Positions 949-9,633 of a DNA stretch of 64,000 nt are shown here, piece after piece. This DNA comes from Planctomycetota bacterium (GTDB taxonomy: Bacteria; Planctomycetota; Phycisphaerae; Sedimentisphaerales; Anaerohalosphaeraceae). Below the pieces are notes generated by a model. It saw nothing but the letters and a program-made list of their open reading frames with translations. It ran no database searches and was not told the DNA's origin. Every line of letters starts with the position of its first letter. The first letter of the stretch is position 1. The stretch is taken from contig VGXU01000001.1 of NCBI GenBank assembly GCA_016873215.1, forward strand, positions 62,001-126,000. Reading direction: 5' to 3'. The translations under genes and the position numbers were made by a program.

Positions 949-1986
949 ATGGGGAAATCAGAATTGATTAAGTCGGTTTTAGCTTCAGCAGCGATGAGCG
1001 CCAGTGATTTCGTTCGTGATGTTGCTTCTTATGGGATGTTCTCGGGCGACGATATACGCAGAAAGAAATCGCAGATTGATGAGCAGGCCAAAGAATATGA
1101 AACATTAAATCGCAGGATACGAGAGAAACGACACCGTTTGACAGACTGTATCTTCCTTGGCGGGGATGTTCTGACGGATATGATATCCCAATCGTATGAC
1201 ATTCCTGGCGATGTGCTTGAAGCCTATCAGACGGTTTATCCAGATCTTGCGGCAGCGAAATCATTCCAAGATGCAGTGAATTCTTACGATGAAAACCAAC
1301 TGACGGGTTTTATCTCCAGCATAAAAGGCAAACTATTTGAAATGCAATATGCCGACCACCTTAATTCCGGAGTTCTGCCGGAGGGGTATTATGCAGAACT
1401 TGCCCATTCGGTTACGCAGCCCGGCTGGGATATCGAGGTGGTTGGGCCCGATGGTCATATTGCGGATTTAATTCAGACAAAGGCCACAGACTCAGCACAG
1501 TATGTACTTGAGGCCCTGCATCGCTATCCTGATATAGATGTTGTGACGACAGGAGAGGTATATTCTCAACTTGTAATGCAGGATATGACAGAACGCATTA
1601 CGGACTCAGGAATCAGCAATGATGTGATTACCGATTATGTTAATGATACTATTGATGGAACGTCTATACACATGGATTGGTCGCCCCCGCTTATCTCGCT
1701 TGCGTTAATTGCCTTTACGGCCTATTCCATGGAAAACCTGTCTCTATACGAAAAATCTGCTCATTTTGGAACCAGAGCGGGCAAAAGCTATCTATGCTAT
1801 CTTCTTGGAAAAGGAGCTGCGGTTTTTACCCAGTCTTGGCCGTTAGGTCTTGCTGTTAGCCTTGTATCTCGTTATTTGGCGGTAAAGGGCAAGGCTCAGA
1901 GAGACGTGTATTTAAGACTGTGTGAAATAGAACAGACAAACGATAAGATTATTGGCCGTCTGGAGTCACATTTAAGCAAAATATAA
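949..1986 (+). CDS. Uncharacterised protein with a nuclease-like core and two C-terminal hydrophobic segments
   Basis: The 345-residue product is not recognised as a named family. Residues 121-180 have the layout of a PD-(D/E)XK-type nuclease core: IKGKLFEMQ (E131), then GWDIEV (D161), then LIQTKAT (Q176-x-K178), in which the usual D/E-x-K is replaced by Q-x-K, as in several restriction-like enzymes. Two hydrophobic stretches at about 246-262 and 284-310 suggest membrane association, and residues 35-65 are highly charged and helical. The start follows a GGGGAA ribosome site. The next gene begins 12 bp downstream with its own AAAGGAG site, so the two are very probably one operon. The setting among repeats, a DUF559 gene and a restriction relic suggests accessory or defence DNA. 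The nuclease assignment is inferred from motif spacing only. Confidence 0.7.
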   Translation: MGKSELIKSVLASAAMSASDFVRDVASYGMFSGDDIRRKKSQIDEQAKEYETLNRRIREKRHRLTDCIFLGGDVLTDMISQSYDIPGDVLEAYQTVYPDLAAAKSFQDAVNSYDENQLTGFISSIKGKLFEMQYADHLNSGVLPEGYYAELAHSVTQPGWDIEVVGPDGHIADLIQTKATDSAQYVLEALHRYPDIDVVTTGEVYSQLVMQDMTERITDSGISNDVITDYVNDTIDGTSIHMDWSPPLISLALIAFTAYSMENLSLYEKSAHFGTRAGKSYLCYLLGKGAAVFTQSWPLGLAVSLVSRYLAVKGKAQRDVYLRLCEIEQTNDKIIGRLESHLSKI

Positions 1987-1997
1987 AGGAGTATTTT

Positions 1998-2900
1998 ATG
2001 CCATGGTTTGAAAATATTGTAAATTTTGCTTGTGAGTGTATGTTTTTTGTCGGCAATGTACTAGCCGATATATCTATTCAAGTTCAGGATTTCGTGGGCC
2101 GAGTCAGAGAGGCCGTACGCCCCAACATAACCCAAATGCAAGATATCGAGCGAAAACTCCAGGATGTTAATCTTTCAATAGAAGACCTTCTTCGTAAGAA
2201 CAATCGTGATACAGGGCTTTCGACACAAGATAAAAAACGACTTAATGAACTAAAGTCAAAACGGGAACAGCTTAAAAAAGATATTTGGTCAGTAAAAGAA
2301 CAGGAGACACTCCGTACTGTAGCCAATAATGAAAAAGTCTATACTAAGATTATTACTCCTCAGCCTCAGCATTTACACATTGTTCAGTATCACGTTGGCC
2401 AGACAGTAAGCGGGAAAAGATGCCCTAAATGTGGTAAGGAAATGATGTTGAGAATAAATAATGATACACAGAGGCCTTTTTGGGGTTGTGTGGATTATTT
2501 TAGTCTTCCGGGTTCTCCGCCTAAATGCAAAGGCAATGAACCTTACAGGCTGAGCGATCATAGATTATTCTTCCCTACGGAAATTCCTGAATTTGAAATA
2601 TCAAATGCTGAATTTACTGAAATATATTCAGATAGAGGTATTCAGAACGGGGTTGCTCGTCGTATGAAAGAATATCAAAATGTAGCTGCGAACGAGTACT
2701 TTTGCCCAACACATGGCGAACGACTTATTCTGAGAGAGAAAAGAGAATTTGAAGGCGCTTTGGATCAATTTTTTCTGGCTTGTCCTCGCTGGAATCTGGA
2801 AGATCACTCTATTTCTTGTAGGTACAAGATGAAAATCAAGACTCCAGCTCAGTTGGCAGCCGTTTTGAAGAATTATGATCGTAAACGCGGCATCTTGTAA
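1998..2900 (+). CDS. Uncharacterised protein with coiled coil and topoisomerase-like zinc ribbons
   Basis: The 300-residue product has a hydrophobic N-terminus (about 4-25), a charged coiled-coil region (45-110), and then two cysteine clusters. The first (C142-x2-C145 ... C164 ... C177, residues 141-180) closely resembles the C-terminal zinc finger of type I DNA topoisomerases (CPKCGKEM followed by FWGC). The second (C236, H239, C262, C274) looks like a degenerate copy. Such ribbons usually bind single-stranded nucleic acid. With the nuclease-like protein encoded just upstream it could form a membrane-anchored nucleic-acid-handling pair, which is inference. The start has a clear AAAGGAG site. 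I cannot name a family for the whole protein. Confidence 0.7.
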   Translation: MPWFENIVNFACECMFFVGNVLADISIQVQDFVGRVREAVRPNITQMQDIERKLQDVNLSIEDLLRKNNRDTGLSTQDKKRLNELKSKREQLKKDIWSVKEQETLRTVANNEKVYTKIITPQPQHLHIVQYHVGQTVSGKRCPKCGKEMMLRINNDTQRPFWGCVDYFSLPGSPPKCKGNEPYRLSDHRLFFPTEIPEFEISNAEFTEIYSDRGIQNGVARRMKEYQNVAANEYFCPTHGERLILREKREFEGALDQFFLACPRWNLEDHSISCRYKMKIKTPAQLAAVLKNYDRKRGIL

Positions 2901-3148: not shown

Positions 3149-3547
3149 ATGCAAGATAAATGTTTGAATAATCATCCGGAGATGAAGACGTTTCGGCGGG
3201 AATTGCGAAACGCGATGACACCGGCTGAGGCGAAGATGTGGAGCTATTTGAAAAGTAAACAGCTTGACGGCAGGCGGTTTAAGCGGCAGCACAGCTTTGG
3301 CGGCTATATTCTTGATTTTTACTGTCCGGCTGAACGATTGGCGATAGAACTGGATGGGGCGCCGCATTTTAATGCTGAGGCAATTGAATACGATAGGGAA
3401 CGAGATTTGTTTTTAAAACAATATGGTGTTTTGGTGCTGCGATTTGAAAATCACTGGGTATTTGATAATCCGCAAACAGTGCTGAATGAGATACGAAAAC
3501 ATTTTGGATGGCTGGAGAAAAAAGGAATGCCTTCGGCGACTGAATAA
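3149..3547 (+). CDS. DUF559 endonuclease-domain protein
   Basis: The 132-residue product has the typical length and motifs of DUF559 proteins, relatives of very-short-patch repair endonucleases with a PD-(D/E)XK fold: an N-terminal LRNAMTPAEAKMWSYL helix, FKRQHSFGGYILDFYCP (catalytic D near residue 56), LAIELDGAPHF (E near 66, D near 68), then ERDLFLKQYGVLVLRFEN. The cellular role of the family is not settled. An AAGGAG lies somewhat far (13 nt) upstream of the ATG. Directly after the stop comes a C-rich hairpin (3575-3599), and then the remnant of a restriction/methylase gene. DUF559 genes are often found embedded in such hairpin-bearing spacers and may be mobile, which is an inference here. 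Confidence 0.85.
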   Translation: MQDKCLNNHPEMKTFRRELRNAMTPAEAKMWSYLKSKQLDGRRFKRQHSFGGYILDFYCPAERLAIELDGAPHFNAEAIEYDRERDLFLKQYGVLVLRFENHWVFDNPQTVLNEIRKHFGWLEKKGMPSATE

Positions 3548-3574
3548 CACCCCCTCCCCCCGCTGCGCGGGGTA

Positions 3575-3599
3575 CTCCCCCTTGAAAAAAAAGGGGGAG
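3575..3599. repeat. CTCCCCCTT hairpin element
   Basis: CTCCCCCTT (3575-3583) and AAGGGGGAG (3591-3599) are perfect 9-bp arms around an A-rich loop. Just before it lies CCCCGC-TGCG-CGGGG. Similar C-rich hairpins are common dispersed elements in environmental bacterial genomes. Here it separates the DUF559 gene from a truncated gene and may mark an insertion junction. Confidence 0.7.
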
Positions 3600-3662
3600 A
3601 GCTTATGGCGGTTTTACCCGGTGTCGGCGGCGCCGAAGCGGAAAGAGGGGGAATTGGAGTTT

Positions 3663-3902
3663 ATGGATGTGTGGTACCCGATTCAGGTCAAGCAGAAGGA
3701 GAAGGTTGGGCGGCCGGACATTGACGCATTCGAGGCGGTGATGATGCGCGAAGACCGGACGAAGGGGTTTTTTGTGTCGTTCGATTTCTCATCCGATGCG
3801 ATGAGCGAGATACAGGCGTTTTTCAAGAAGACGGGCAAGAGTATTATCGCGCTGACTGTCAAAGATATTTTAGACGAGCAAATCGCGTATAAGCTGGCTT
3901 AG
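3663..3902 (+). pseudogene. C-terminal remnant of a restriction/DNA-methylase protein (Mrr-like domain)
   Basis: From 3663 the frame encodes about 79 residues reading MDVWYPIQVKQKEKVGRPD, then IDAFEAVMMREDRTKGFFVSF, and ending in DEQIAYKLA. Q-V-K-Q followed by GRPDIDAFEA is characteristic of the Mrr-type restriction-endonuclease domain found at the C-terminus of some DNA methyltransferases. Everything N-terminal to it is missing: the preceding in-frame sequence is translated spacer (the C-rich hairpin element). No ribosome site is seen. I read it as the surviving tail of a gene destroyed by deletion or insertion of the adjoining DUF559 segment. Confidence 0.65.
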
Positions 3903-3975: not shown

Positions 3976-6900
3976 TTATTTGAGATTTTGGATGCACCAG
4001 TCGGCGAGGGCGGCCTGCTGTTTGTTTTGTGAATCGAGGGCGTGGCGGAGCTGCTTGAGGGTTTCGGTCAGGAATGGATTTTTCAAGACATCAGCAAGGC
4101 GTACGAGCGTTTTTGCCGCGGCAGTGCCGACGGAAGCGATATCCGAACTCATCGCGTCAATCAATACACCGACCGCCTGTTCGGCGGACAGGCCGTATCT
4201 TAATACCACGTCGCCGGCTTCGCCGTCCTCGGTGTAATTGGTTTCCTCAATCAGCCGGAGGGCGTCCAGATGCCGGGGCAGTTGTGTTCCCTGTATCCGT
4301 GCGTACATATCGATATAATCCCGCAGCGGCTTGATCCAGCGATGGTCGCGTGCAAAGGCGTTATAGACGAGGTCGTCATAATCCAGTTGTTTGGGTTTTC
4401 CGGATTCGTCTTTGTAGAGCCGTCTTTGGCCGTGGAAGTAAATCTCGGCGGCGTCGAGCATTGCTTCGAGCAGTCCTTCGCCGGTAAAGCCGGTGAATTT
4501 GACGCCGTTGGCGGGATAGTCTTTATCGCCGAAGTCGTTGTCTGAGACAGTATGCTGCAGGCCGTCCTGATGATGGGCGATGACGGGTGTTCCGCCGGTG
4601 TGTGCTTCCTGCTGACTGATGCCGCAGGGTTCGCCGACTTCGCCGCCGGAGGGCATGACGAAATACTGGCTGCCGACGTAAAGATTGCGATACAAATCGG
4701 GGCTGAGGCTGCCCTGCGGATAATACGCGAATCTGCCGGCCATATCGTTCCTGCCGGCGATGCGGCGCAGGTGCATATCGTACCTTCTGGCGTCCATGCT
4801 GTCTTCCACCCGTCCGCATATCACGAACTGGATGCGCGGGTCGGTGGAGAGGAAATATTCGAGCATTGTGAAGCCATCCATTCGCCACGGTTCCAGCCGG
4901 ACGTAGCGGTTTTGTCCGTCGGTATAGACTTTCCAGTCCACCAGCAGCTCAAAACCTTTTTGTCTGCAGATGCGGTGGAGCATCCCGAAAATAATGTGGT
5001 CGGCGTTTTCGCTGTCGGGCGTCAGGCGGATATTAGGGTCGTTTTGAAGATTGAGCTTGGCGGTTTTTTTGGCGGCGTAGTATTTGTAAAAGAGTCGTTT
5101 TCTGGCCAGGAGCTGCCAAGTCTCGACGAGACTTTTTTTGGTGTTGAACCAGGCGCGCTGGCGTGCTGCCATATTGAAACCGTTACGGCGGGCAAAGAAC
5201 AGTCCCGTTCGTTCTTTTTCAGCGAATTCCCATGCGTGGTTAAACAGCCACGTTTCGCGGAGCATTCGTTCTTTCATAGCTTTACTGACGGTGCCGATGA
5301 AATGGGAACTGCGGAGCATGGTGTGCATGAGGTCGATTTCATGTCCGTGCGGGCTATAGCGGTTGATGGCGAGGTCGTAATGGAATCGCGGGTCCAGGCC
5401 CAGGACGTTGGCATAATAATTTCGCTTTGCGGGGTTGGCTTCGGTCAGGACGATGCCGTACGACGGATGCGGGTTGTGCATCATGCTGCCGACTTTGGTG
5501 TTGGCGAAATGGGGGTCTTCGCGGTATTCCTTCCATGTTGCCAGGAATGCGGCGACCAACCATGTGGGCCATTCGTTGGTCTGAATGACGGACGGATAAT
5601 AATTGTACGCCCGCAGCGCTTCCAGCGCACCCTGAGCCAGCACGCGGGCGCGCCGCACTTTATCTTCGCCGGTGGAGCCGCTGTAAGGGGCGTCGAGGTA
5701 TGCGGCGTTTTCGATGTACAGCACCTCGATGCGCGAGCGTTTGCCGTAACGGCGACGCACGAGGTTGGCCCGCCGGATGTTGACCACCTCGACTTTGGAG
5801 CCTGGCTCAGCGGTTTGTGTCTGTTCGTTAAAATCGGGGAACCGAATGGTAAATTGATGTCCCTCAAACTTCGGGGCGAAATGTGAAAGAATCGCGCTGC
5901 GATTTCTTTCATACAGGGGCGTGACCAGCACGACGTGGAAGCCCAATTCACTGAGAACGTCGGCGATGTCGGTAGTATAGATGCCGACGCCGCCGGATTC
6001 GCCGCTGAATCGTGATTCGGGCGAGACCAGCACGATGGTTCCCAACTGCATGGACTGAAGAATATCGACGGCGGCCCGACAGAGGTCGCGGTCAAAAAGA
6101 CGCTGTTCGTTGATGGTGATTCGCATCAGGAAATCCGTCACGACCTGCGTGATTCCAGGATTGCGGTCGCCAAGGTCCCGCAGCAGGAGTCCCACCGAGG
6201 CGACGCCGTAATCGGCTTCTTCGAGGACCCAGTGAATCAGCAACTCGAATAACTCGCAAAACCGCTCGTATGAGGAATTATCCGGAGCGCAACATTCGAG
6301 AAATACCCGCGCGACATAACAGTGGCGAACGCGTTCCTCGCGTCCGTAGCGGAAAAACCGCCGGAAGGAATCGAAAAGAACCTGTTTTTCCTGAATCACA
6401 TGTTCTTTGGAAACAATTTCATAGACACTGCTGGATACCGGTTCCAGCGAGCCGCCGAATCCCAACTCCAGCAGTTCGTGGCCCGACCAGTATTCTTTTT
6501 GTCCCCATCGCATTTTGCCTTCGACGTTGTTGTATCGTTCCCGCATTTCGTAGAAATCCTGAAGATTGATTCCTTCGACGGGCCGGCCTGTTTCGGCGCT
6601 GCGCAGGCGGAAATTGTACGACCGCGCAATCGCCTGCTGACCTTCGAGGTAGGGGTTTGGGAAATTGAATACGCAGAGCAGTTTTTGTTTTGGGCACGAC
6701 CGGACAAACGCGGCGATGCGTCCGTTGCCGGTGGCGATGGGAGTGATTGTTCCCCTGGCTATCGCCGGGTTTTCGTCGGCAAAGGCAAACAATCCCCGCA
6801 GATACGTTCCGAATCCCCGCAGGTAAGGATAGTGGCGCAGGATGTCCTGTCGGGCGGTTTCTTCCTGCTGCCAGGGATGCGAGAAACGGTTATTGACCCA

Positions 6901-9633
6901 GTGTTTCCAGCATTCGGTATAAGCCATATCGAATCGTTTGGAGAAAGGTCCTGCTTCCGGTCCTGGCAGGCGGCTGATGTGATACATGACGGGGCCGTAA
7001 CTGCTGAAGACCAGCAGGGCCGCGGTCGGCCAAATCATATTCTGGTAATTGCTGGCCGGGGCTTCTTCATCGTGGCTGTTAAACAAGGACAGCGTCTGTC
7101 CGCCGTAGCGGTTCAGAAGCTGCTGCAGATATTCGAGATTGTTATTCAGTCCCAGCGGACTGTCCACGGCCTGACCGCTGCGGATATTTTCAAGATTTTT
7201 AATAACGGCGTTATAAGGAATCGTGGCGGATTTAATCATTCGCACTTCGTTGGCGTGCCATTGCTCGCTGTACATGAGCAGTGCTCCCGGCACCGCTTTC
7301 TGCACATGATAGGCGAGATACAAAATCGGAATGTTCGGTTCGTTGGTTCCGCGCAGGTCAATCGGCTCAAAGCCCTTGACGGTTACTTCCCCGAACAATT
7401 TCGACGTTTCGGTCTGGTCAGGATGCACGGGAAAAACCGTATCAAATCCGTGGCCTACGTCGATGCGCAGGCCGAAACCCAGTTCGGTCAGTTCCCTGCA
7501 GATTCCGGTCAGATATTCGACGTTGTCGAGGTCTCGCATATTGACCATAAAGCTGTCGAGCCATTCGGACCATTCGCCGTCCCAGCCGGCCCGGCGTGAC
7601 AGTTTTCCGTCGGGGCCGGTGATGTAGACCGGCAGGGTGTAAGGCCAACTGTGCCAGGCCCGCGAAAAATGACTCAGTACGCACAGCAGGATTTTCATTC
7701 CGAGTTCGTCGGCTCTTTTCTTGAGGCGCAGAAGACCTTCGATTCCTCCCAAATCATAGCGGATGGTGCGGCCGTCCCAGATGGAAAAGACGGAGGGGTC
7801 CGGCCCCGCTTCGCCGGCCCAGCCCAGCTCCATCGCACCGAGCGGATAAATCCGCGTGTAGCCTTCCTGTTTAATGGCGGGCAATTGTTCGGCCAGGTCA
7901 TCGAACGTGCCATAGACAAACGCGCCGGTTTCATCCCGGACAGGACGCCGGCTTGCGTCGAGCTTGAGATTGAAGGCGTCGGCGTAGAGGCTCAGTACCC
8001 GCTGGCCGCGTTCATCGGCGACGCGTTTCAGCAGGCCGTGCGAGTTTTCGTCGAATTTTTCGAACTGCCATGTTTTTCCCGCGTCGGTGGAAATCTGTAC
8101 GGAATAATGAATCCAGCCGTTTTGTCCCGGCAGGCGGGCCTCAAAGACCAGTTTTTCCTTGTCGGAAGCCGTTTTGTCCAATTGCATCGCCACGTTTTTT
8201 TTCTTGTGACCGTTGACCGACCATTGCACTCGTGCCTGGGTATTTTTGAGACCGATGCGGGCGGGCTTATGCGTACTAACGCGAATATGCGGTGATTCGC
8301 CGCGAAAATAGCTGCGATTGACCCTGGCGGGCGGAAAGGCCGCGGGCCGTTCCGTCAGGAGGTCTTCGAGGATTTTACTGACTCTCAGGCAGACCGACCG
8401 GCTGATGCCCTTGTTGGGATTGTGCCAGTAATACAGTGAGGCATAAAGCAGCCGCAGGGATTCATGGGCGTTTTGTTTATATCGAATCCGCCGGACCAGT
8501 TCGTCCATCGCGGCGTTAACGGTGTGGATGTGATCGGAAATCAGCATCCGCGACAATTCACCCAGCGCCGGGTCGGCGGCCCAGATTGTCAGCCGATCCA
8601 GCCACGGCCGGATAAAGGCGTCGTGGTCGTGAAAAATTTCCGTGCGGACGCCGTGCGAATAAACGCTGCGGCAGGCGTCGTCGTGACTCATCGCGTCGGC
8701 GAATCGTTCGGGGGCCACGCGAATCACTTTTGTGACATCCCGAGGGAGCTGATACACCACCACAATCGTTGAGAATTCAAAAAAGAGATGTTTGAATCCG
8801 ACCAGCGTTTTTTGAATGGCGTCAGGGGTGAGTTTTTTCGATTGGGCGAACAGAATAGCCTGACGGCTCAGGATATTACGAAGATGAGTCCGTTGTTTTT
8901 CCGGCTCGGTGCCAGCGGTGTTTAGAAATTCCGCCGCCGCCGGCGTCCGGCCGAAGTAGTCCCAGAATTCCTCCAGCAAAATCAGCGTGTCTAATTGCTG
9001 CAGGGCGTGCTGCAGGCGCAGCGGGCGGATTTTTTCCGGGAGGGCGTCAATCTGATTAATCGCGGCGTCGAGAATGGATTTATGCGCCTGGAAAAAATAC
9101 AGGCCGTATTGCTGCACCTGACTGATATGAAGGTCGGCATGGCAGAAATGATAAAAGACCATCGCCATGTATCCGGTCAGCAGCGCTTCCCGCTCCACTC
9201 GATTTTCGGCGTCGAAATCCAGAAGGCTCTCGTGCAGGAGGATTTCGTGCGGCATCAGAACCGCCGGCTGTTCGGCCATGAGGCTGATGCGCAGACGGAT
9301 TTTATGGTCGGTCAGATACGCATAATCCTGCGGATTGAATTTTGTGACCGTCTGCCATGTCTGTTCAAGGCAGCGATGAAGAAAGAAGGCCTTGTCCCGG
9401 CTGATTCCTTCGAGGACGGAAATATCGTTGTGGATTTCGCATTGTCCTTCGGGGGTGAACGTGAAGACCGCAACTGTGTCGAATCCCTTGACCTGTGTTT
9501 TCTCCGGGCTCATAACATCCTTATTGAGACAGTCTTTATCGGACCTGGCCTGCGGGCCGATGCTTTCATCTTCCCTCGGCGTGGTATCATCATTGCTTGT
9601 TGTGTTTTTGTCAAGCGTCTTTCGTTTTGGCAC
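3976..9633 (-). CDS. Fusion of GH13-like alpha-amylase domain and glycogen/starch synthase
   Basis: The 1885-residue protein has an all-helical N-terminal region (about 45-430), a carbohydrate-binding-like beta region (435-530), a GH13-type barrel (about 545-1080) and a GT5 glycogen-synthase module (about 1197-1785), followed by a HEAT-like tail. GH13 catalytic positions appear intact: D725 in GLRIDVGH, E790 in MYSEQW and D855 in FNSHDEE. The GT5 half has ESGGVGIYT (about 1211-1220) in place of the usual K-x-G-G-L sugar-nucleotide loop, and the retaining-GT E-x7-E motif (E1668, E1676). It probably remodels and elongates cytoplasmic alpha-glucan. The GTG at 9633 lacks a ribosome site; the ATG at 9513 (residue 41) has AAGGAT well spaced and may be the true start. 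It lies 79 bp after the SpoIIE-type phosphatase, probably co-transcribed. Donor specificity is not determined from sequence. Confidence 0.9.
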   Translation of the reverse strand: MPKRKTLDKNTTSNDDTTPREDESIGPQARSDKDCLNKDVMSPEKTQVKGFDTVAVFTFTPEGQCEIHNDISVLEGISRDKAFFLHRCLEQTWQTVTKFNPQDYAYLTDHKIRLRISLMAEQPAVLMPHEILLHESLLDFDAENRVEREALLTGYMAMVFYHFCHADLHISQVQQYGLYFFQAHKSILDAAINQIDALPEKIRPLRLQHALQQLDTLILLEEFWDYFGRTPAAAEFLNTAGTEPEKQRTHLRNILSRQAILFAQSKKLTPDAIQKTLVGFKHLFFEFSTIVVVYQLPRDVTKVIRVAPERFADAMSHDDACRSVYSHGVRTEIFHDHDAFIRPWLDRLTIWAADPALGELSRMLISDHIHTVNAAMDELVRRIRYKQNAHESLRLLYASLYYWHNPNKGISRSVCLRVSKILEDLLTERPAAFPPARVNRSYFRGESPHIRVSTHKPARIGLKNTQARVQWSVNGHKKKNVAMQLDKTASDKEKLVFEARLPGQNGWIHYSVQISTDAGKTWQFEKFDENSHGLLKRVADERGQRVLSLYADAFNLKLDASRRPVRDETGAFVYGTFDDLAEQLPAIKQEGYTRIYPLGAMELGWAGEAGPDPSVFSIWDGRTIRYDLGGIEGLLRLKKRADELGMKILLCVLSHFSRAWHSWPYTLPVYITGPDGKLSRRAGWDGEWSEWLDSFMVNMRDLDNVEYLTGICRELTELGFGLRIDVGHGFDTVFPVHPDQTETSKLFGEVTVKGFEPIDLRGTNEPNIPILYLAYHVQKAVPGALLMYSEQWHANEVRMIKSATIPYNAVIKNLENIRSGQAVDSPLGLNNNLEYLQQLLNRYGGQTLSLFNSHDEEAPASNYQNMIWPTAALLVFSSYGPVMYHISRLPGPEAGPFSKRFDMAYTECWKHWVNNRFSHPWQQEETARQDILRHYPYLRGFGTYLRGLFAFADENPAIARGTITPIATGNGRIAAFVRSCPKQKLLCVFNFPNPYLEGQQAIARSYNFRLRSAETGRPVEGINLQDFYEMRERYNNVEGKMRWGQKEYWSGHELLELGFGGSLEPVSSSVYEIVSKEHVIQEKQVLFDSFRRFFRYGREERVRHCYVARVFLECCAPDNSSYERFCELFELLIHWVLEEADYGVASVGLLLRDLGDRNPGITQVVTDFLMRITINEQRLFDRDLCRAAVDILQSMQLGTIVLVSPESRFSGESGGVGIYTTDIADVLSELGFHVVLVTPLYERNRSAILSHFAPKFEGHQFTIRFPDFNEQTQTAEPGSKVEVVNIRRANLVRRRYGKRSRIEVLYIENAAYLDAPYSGSTGEDKVRRARVLAQGALEALRAYNYYPSVIQTNEWPTWLVAAFLATWKEYREDPHFANTKVGSMMHNPHPSYGIVLTEANPAKRNYYANVLGLDPRFHYDLAINRYSPHGHEIDLMHTMLRSSHFIGTVSKAMKERMLRETWLFNHAWEFAEKERTGLFFARRNGFNMAARQRAWFNTKKSLVETWQLLARKRLFYKYYAAKKTAKLNLQNDPNIRLTPDSENADHIIFGMLHRICRQKGFELLVDWKVYTDGQNRYVRLEPWRMDGFTMLEYFLSTDPRIQFVICGRVEDSMDARRYDMHLRRIAGRNDMAGRFAYYPQGSLSPDLYRNLYVGSQYFVMPSGGEVGEPCGISQQEAHTGGTPVIAHHQDGLQHTVSDNDFGDKDYPANGVKFTGFTGEGLLEAMLDAAEIYFHGQRRLYKDESGKPKQLDYDDLVYNAFARDHRWIKPLRDYIDMYARIQGTQLPRHLDALRLIEETNYTEDGEAGDVVLRYGLSAEQAVGVLIDAMSSDIASVGTAAAKTLVRLADVLKNPFLTETLKQLRHALDSQNKQQAALADWCIQNLK

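Follow-up and report, generated by a model that had tools for sequence, protein, structure and literature searches.

SNIPE is a membrane-bound anti-phage nuclease that carries a DUF4041 part and a GIY-YIG nuclease on one chain, and its tethering allows phage DNA to be cut as it is injected, with the host spared (PMC13190303). Membrane tethering is a newly recognised means for a sequence-blind nuclease to separate incoming from resident DNA. Many further defence candidates have been catalogued as PDCs, which are largely unvalidated (PMC12988326, PMC10855318); for PDC-M72 our literature search found no paper, and no published activity for any member. Here we compare with these systems a two-gene cassette from the window, the 64,000-nucleotide stretch of Planctomycetota DNA that was analysed. 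An earlier note on this DNA had described two adjacent open reading frames, which we call B and ZnR and which exist as it described them (Table 1).

Table 1 Features of the B-ZnR cassette (window coordinates)
Feature	Position	Strand	Description or basis
Gene B	949..1986	+	345 aa, PD-(D/E)XK type; remote PDC-M72B member
Predicted nuclease core of B, residues 90-240	1216..1668	+	AF2 block means 86-98; PDC-M72B match over residues 89-238
Codon of E131, first helix of core	1339..1341	+	Invariant, 62 sequences
Codon of D161, second strand	1429..1431	+	Invariant, 62 sequences
Codons of Q176-T177-K178, end of third strand	1474..1482	+	Q 61/62, K 62/62
Putative membrane contact: C-terminal hydrophobic helical tail of B, about residues 246-312	1684..1884	+	Hydropathy; low-confidence AF2 helices
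Gene ZnR (gene 2)	1998..2900	+	300-aa coiled-coil, double zinc-ribbon protein
Ribosome-binding site AAGGAG of ZnR, one base overlap with B stop codon	1986..1991	+	Sequence
N-terminal hydrophobic helix of ZnR, residues 7-25	2016..2072	+	Hydropathy 1.57
Long helical, probably coiled-coil part of ZnR, residues 23-110	2064..2327	+	AF2 helices 23-70, 76-110
Zinc ribbon 1, C142-x2-C145...C164...C177, topoisomerase-I type	2421..2528	+	Alignment, Pfam/hhalign
Zinc ribbon 2, C236-P-x-H239...C262...C274	2703..2819	+	Ligands conserved in all four full-length relatives; ribbon-1 strand order

Results

Family membership and conservation of B

Two PDC-M72B models from PADLOC match residues 88-240 of B (E = 5.9e-22 and 5.7e-20), and the same profiles match B relatives. 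By these profile matches B is a remote member of PDC-M72, a catalogued, uncharacterised defence candidate family; the earlier note had called the system unrecognised, yet it is only the zinc-ribbon partner that the catalogue lacks. Pfam, NCBIfam and PHROGs gave no match to B, and none of the Pfam nuclease profiles matches B or its family. A scan of 85,000 species genomes with the single B protein found no relative; scanning genomes with the B-family alignment gave 80 loci in several phyla. Relatives are present in Planctomycetota, on Rhodobacterales plasmids and on 12 viral contigs, and B of the window type was not found in the viral-contig scans. The distribution is patchy and B very rare (2/59 relatives and 3/246 genomes of the phylum).

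In the family alignment, which comprises 62 sequences with about 20% identity to the window B, K126, G127, E131, D161, K178 and E203 never vary, whereas Q176 is kept in all sequences except one. The E131...D161...Q176-x-K178 arrangement had thus been numbered correctly in the earlier note, and given its conservation at such low identity, the alignment indicates that it is not due to chance. This bears on the reading that B serves housekeeping or repair and has no part in defence, or that it is catalytically dead and tethers DNA. Such a reading could be entertained because the PADLOC call is based on genomic embedding and all members have candidate status, but it fits poorly with a gene that is rare and patchy, occurs on plasmids and in prophages and keeps the full catalytic set, and we consider it very improbable.

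Predicted fold of B

We built an AF2 model of B on 61 family sequences and expressed confidence as means over 10-residue blocks. The confidently modelled core has an alpha-beta-beta-beta-alpha-beta topology, formed by helix 115-142, strands 148-151, 162-165 and 171-178, helix 183-192 and strand 197-200. Within this core E131 belongs to the first helix, D161 borders the second strand and Q176-x-K178 closes the third, and by alignment and model the E...D...(E/Q)xK residues sit at the canonical PD-(D/E)XK positions. Foldseek gave no significant match of the model in the PDB (best E 0.086); the best-ranked neighbours, none of them significant, include the PD-(D/E)XK proteins Ecl18kI, YaeQ, DrdV, influenza PA and Bax1. 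Similarly, a viral fold library gave no significant match (best E 0.009), and the names it returned, all non-significant, were restriction endonucleases, VRR-NUC, Mrr and RecB-like proteins. As Foldseek, Pfam and hhalign yielded no significant structural or profile match of B to a proven PD-(D/E)XK member, we infer the fold from the topology together with the residues. On this basis a PD-(D/E)XK-type nuclease fold of B is supported by computation. The earlier note had made its interpretation depend on a nuclease core in the predicted structure, and a nuclease-type core is what the model displays.

Membership of B in the Mrr or NERD families was rejected, as profile comparison failed (hhalign to Mrr 1%), and neither Pfam nor profile comparison found an Mrr_cat or NERD domain in B. 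A profile search of PDB sequences with B was discarded; its matches were designed or unrelated helical proteins reached through low-complexity helices.

ZnR carries two zinc ribbons

ZnR starts 11 nt behind B, with its ribosome-binding site 6 nt ahead of the ATG. The coiled coil and C4 finger described for this gene in the earlier note are confirmed as the helical stretch 23-110 and C142, C145, C164 and C177. What had been taken for a degenerate second copy of the finger is instead a conserved ribbon. In an alignment of the four full-length ZnR members C142, C145, C164, C236, H239, C262 and C274 are conserved, and C177, the fourth cysteine of ribbon 1, is present in each, displaced by gaps. 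The AF2 model of ZnR is poor overall (mean pLDDT 55) and shows one four-strand order repeated at 136-182 and 230-279. Because the ligands of the second ribbon are conserved and the strand order is repeated, we read ZnR as having two ribbons rather than one and a relic.

Ribbon 1 aligns with the topoisomerase-type ribbon of Mrr/NERD proteins (hhalign 96.5%); its single-protein Pfam score is under the cut-off. The topoisomerase type of the ribbons points to DNA binding rather than signalling. A PADLOC match of ZnR to PbeC was rejected, being accounted for by the coiled coil and ribbon.

The B-ZnR pair recurs in other genomes

In Thiohalocapsa halophila (L069) B is followed after 26 nt by a ZnR homologue that shares this architecture, and the gene order is glycine-zipper gene, B, ZnR. 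A profile built from this copy and that of the window found three more copies among 369 gammaproteobacterial genomes, and none besides the window copy in 392 Planctomycetota genomes. In two gammaproteobacterial loci, L126 and L128, ZnR follows B with overlapping frames, and in total four of the five known ZnR copies, the window included, adjoin B. The earlier note would have given up its interpretation had the genes never co-occurred elsewhere; they do so in L069, L126 and L128. No ZnR relatives were found in phage and plasmid records or in the viral-contig scans, and in draws from Pseudomonadota and Bacillota the sole strong match was the known Thiohalocapsa gene, the others being single-ribbon or coiled-coil hits.

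In the B tree, the window B, L126, L128 and L005 (a B at a contig start) fall on one side of a 100/99 split, and the L069 B groups among glycine-zipper Bs, far from the window clade. Since ZnR accompanies B on both sides of this deep division, a functional link is indicated rather than chance linkage, and the tree argues for a link that arose, or was kept, in two deep B branches. As judged from these loci, the B-ZnR pair recurs across phyla, and the cassette appears to be horizontally spread and rare.

A further ZnR homologue stands alone, with no B, at about 6600-7517 of L127; it belongs to an integron-like cassette array, and an integron-integrase-like gene precedes it. It is apparently frame-shifted, its frame being broken near 6800.

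Hydrophobic segments and membrane association

Both of the C-terminal hydrophobic stretches of B pointed out in the earlier note are real, though borderline, with Kyte-Doolittle means of 1.41 and 1.17 over 19 residues, and the window B tail falls short of the hydropathy commonly required of a transmembrane segment. Across B relatives the tail is more hydrophobic than the rest of the protein (median best 19-residue mean 1.56 vs 1.06) and reaches 1.6 in 29 of the 62 sequences; the hydrophobic partner proteins of these relatives mostly exceed 1.6. A helix comparable to the N-terminal hydrophobic helix of ZnR is found in its relatives, and is weaker in L069. By hydropathy the membrane signal is therefore borderline in the window proteins and clearer in relatives and their partner proteins, which makes membrane anchoring of the window cassette plausible.

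A clostridial B (L023:7959-9182) has a much longer hydrophobic C-terminus. After 12 nt comes a coiled-coil protein (L023:9195-10130) that has a membrane helix at its C-terminus and is possibly another type of adaptor.

The cassette lies in a short accessory patch

The GC content of B and ZnR is 0.447 and 0.396, respectively, vs 0.507 for the window, and such an AT-rich cassette fits accessory DNA. Repeats are present upstream, and the next genes downstream are a DUF559 gene (3149-3547, E 5e-31) and a partial Mrr-type relic (3486-3902, E 9e-5), in agreement with the accessory-looking neighbourhood described earlier. Farther upstream in the assembly, genes that read as tyrosyl-tRNA synthetase-, Obg- and MnmE-like are ordinary chromosomal ones, so the cassette lies in a short accessory patch. 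Read as a whole, 3149-3902 is a restriction relic, made up of the DUF559 nuclease gene and then the C-terminal piece of an Mrr/methyltransferase-like restriction gene. On the reverse strand at 3976-9633, a 1885-aa open reading frame reads like a fusion of an alpha-amylase domain and a glycogen-synthase-type glycosyltransferase.

Partners and genomic contexts of B relatives

Of 95 B loci, 89 encode a hydrophobic partner, as a separate upstream gene in 50 and as a fusion to B in 39. The partner is of a glycine-zipper type related to PDC-M09A in 41 separate and 37 fused cases, and of the DUF697 type in 9 and 2, respectively. Searches of the open reading frames beside the window cassette found neither a glycine-zipper nor a DUF697 gene.

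These partners raise the question of whether B could be an abortive-infection effector, which infection frees or activates to degrade host DNA or RNA, with the hydrophobic partner or ZnR as sensor or restraint and death occurring before phage maturation. Pairing or fusion with glycine-zipper or DUF697 domains would suit a sensor of membrane damage or a pore, and a patchy distribution is usual for such systems. However, profile searches found no sensor, nucleotide-signalling or ATPase domain in B or ZnR, and the ribbons look suited to DNA rather than to signalling; we regard this explanation as rather unlikely.

Type I restriction genes (HsdM, HsdS or HsdR) adjoin B relatives in L048, L060, L061, L064, L070 and L047. 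B and its glycine-zipper gene, where they occur in prophages of Rhodobacteraceae, lie on the strand opposite to the virion genes and adjoin a minor tail gene. A reverse-strand site among virion genes is the usual place of phage cargo genes. Such reverse-strand pairs of these prophages, among virion genes (minor tail, neck), are those at L053:6512-9563 and on the related viral contigs L089-L099. We claim no enrichment of defence genes in the proximity of B: in a near/far PADLOC control within the B loci these genes were not visibly richer near B than several kb away, and pAgo, HamA, ZorA and restriction genes also occur farther out.

The same parts could also explain a membrane nuclease that acts against plasmids, or processes DNA in conjugation or transformation, degrading or trimming DNA that enters other than by phage injection, and plasmid-borne B members do exist. 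Nevertheless, the prophage B among virion genes and the members in restriction operons suggest phage competition, and no competence or conjugation gene linked to B-ZnR pairs was seen, which leaves this option improbable in our judgement. The anti-element or DNA-processing role with membrane anchoring proposed in the earlier note is thus partly supported: the PADLOC candidate family and the restriction and prophage contexts lend support to a putative anti-element role, and the anchoring is plausible with borderline hydropathy.

Discussion

A model for the cassette

Computation supports the fold topology, the catalytic set, the conserved operon, the two conserved ribbons and the defence-type contexts of the family. 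We hypothesize that the cassette is a split restriction-type system, in which B would be a metal-dependent PD-(D/E)XK nuclease (E131, D161, Q176-x-K178) held at the membrane by its hydrophobic C-terminal tail. ZnR, co-operonic with B, might act close to the membrane as a coiled-coil adaptor, gripping DNA with its two zinc ribbons and delivering it to B. Together they would cut phage or plasmid DNA as it enters, and confinement to the membrane would spare the chromosome, a principle like that of SNIPE. We favour cutting at the membrane because it brings a nuclease together with a probable contact to the membrane and an adaptor that would bind DNA, and because single-chain Mrr/NERD proteins and SNIPE provide precedent; we give an even chance to incoming DNA being cut there by a B-ZnR complex.

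Comparison with known systems

The cassette resembles PDC-M72 in that B matches the M72B profile. It differs in that ZnR matches no PDC-M72 model, although the two usual B partners tested match none either, so this comparison does not bear on which protein is M72A. Furthermore, the window B belongs to a separate deep clade, has an N-terminal extension and is without an upstream glycine-zipper or DUF697 gene. PDC-M09A and the DUF697 membrane proteins are similar to the usual partners of B relatives or to the domains fused at their N-termini, whereas the window cassette has neither. Within the reach of these tools, the two-gene form with a zinc-ribbon protein is undescribed and missing from the PADLOC catalogue.

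With the single-chain Mrr/NERD nucleases the cassette has in common a hydrophobic segment, a PD-(D/E)XK-type nuclease and a topoisomerase-I zinc ribbon. In contrast to them, no homology of B to Mrr or NERD is detectable, and the cassette splits the elements over two genes and has two ribbons instead of one. Among the loci collected here, L132-L146, L124, L125 and L140, from Pseudomonadota and Planctomycetota, encode single chains with a hydrophobic N-terminal segment, a NERD/Mrr nuclease and a topoisomerase-type ribbon.

The likeness to SNIPE is one of working principle, namely that a variable anchor keeps a nuclease and a DNA-binding part at the membrane, the membrane hold being putative in the cassette. 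The differences are a PD-(D/E)XK-type core with a separate zinc-ribbon protein and no sequence match, and Pfam matched neither DUF4041 nor GIY-YIG in B or ZnR. It is possible, if doubtful, that the cassette is a two-protein system against mobile elements, consisting of a membrane-held nuclease and a membrane-proximal double zinc-ribbon adaptor, in which SNIPE-like spatial discrimination of self from non-self evolved independently and in which zinc-ribbon, glycine-zipper and DUF697 adaptors are interchangeable within one nuclease family. If the family does work by tethering, the principle would extend to another nuclease fold, one whose adaptors are modular and can be exchanged. The uncharacterised PDC-M72 family would then also become specifically testable, with catalytic residues, zinc ligands and three alternative partners named.
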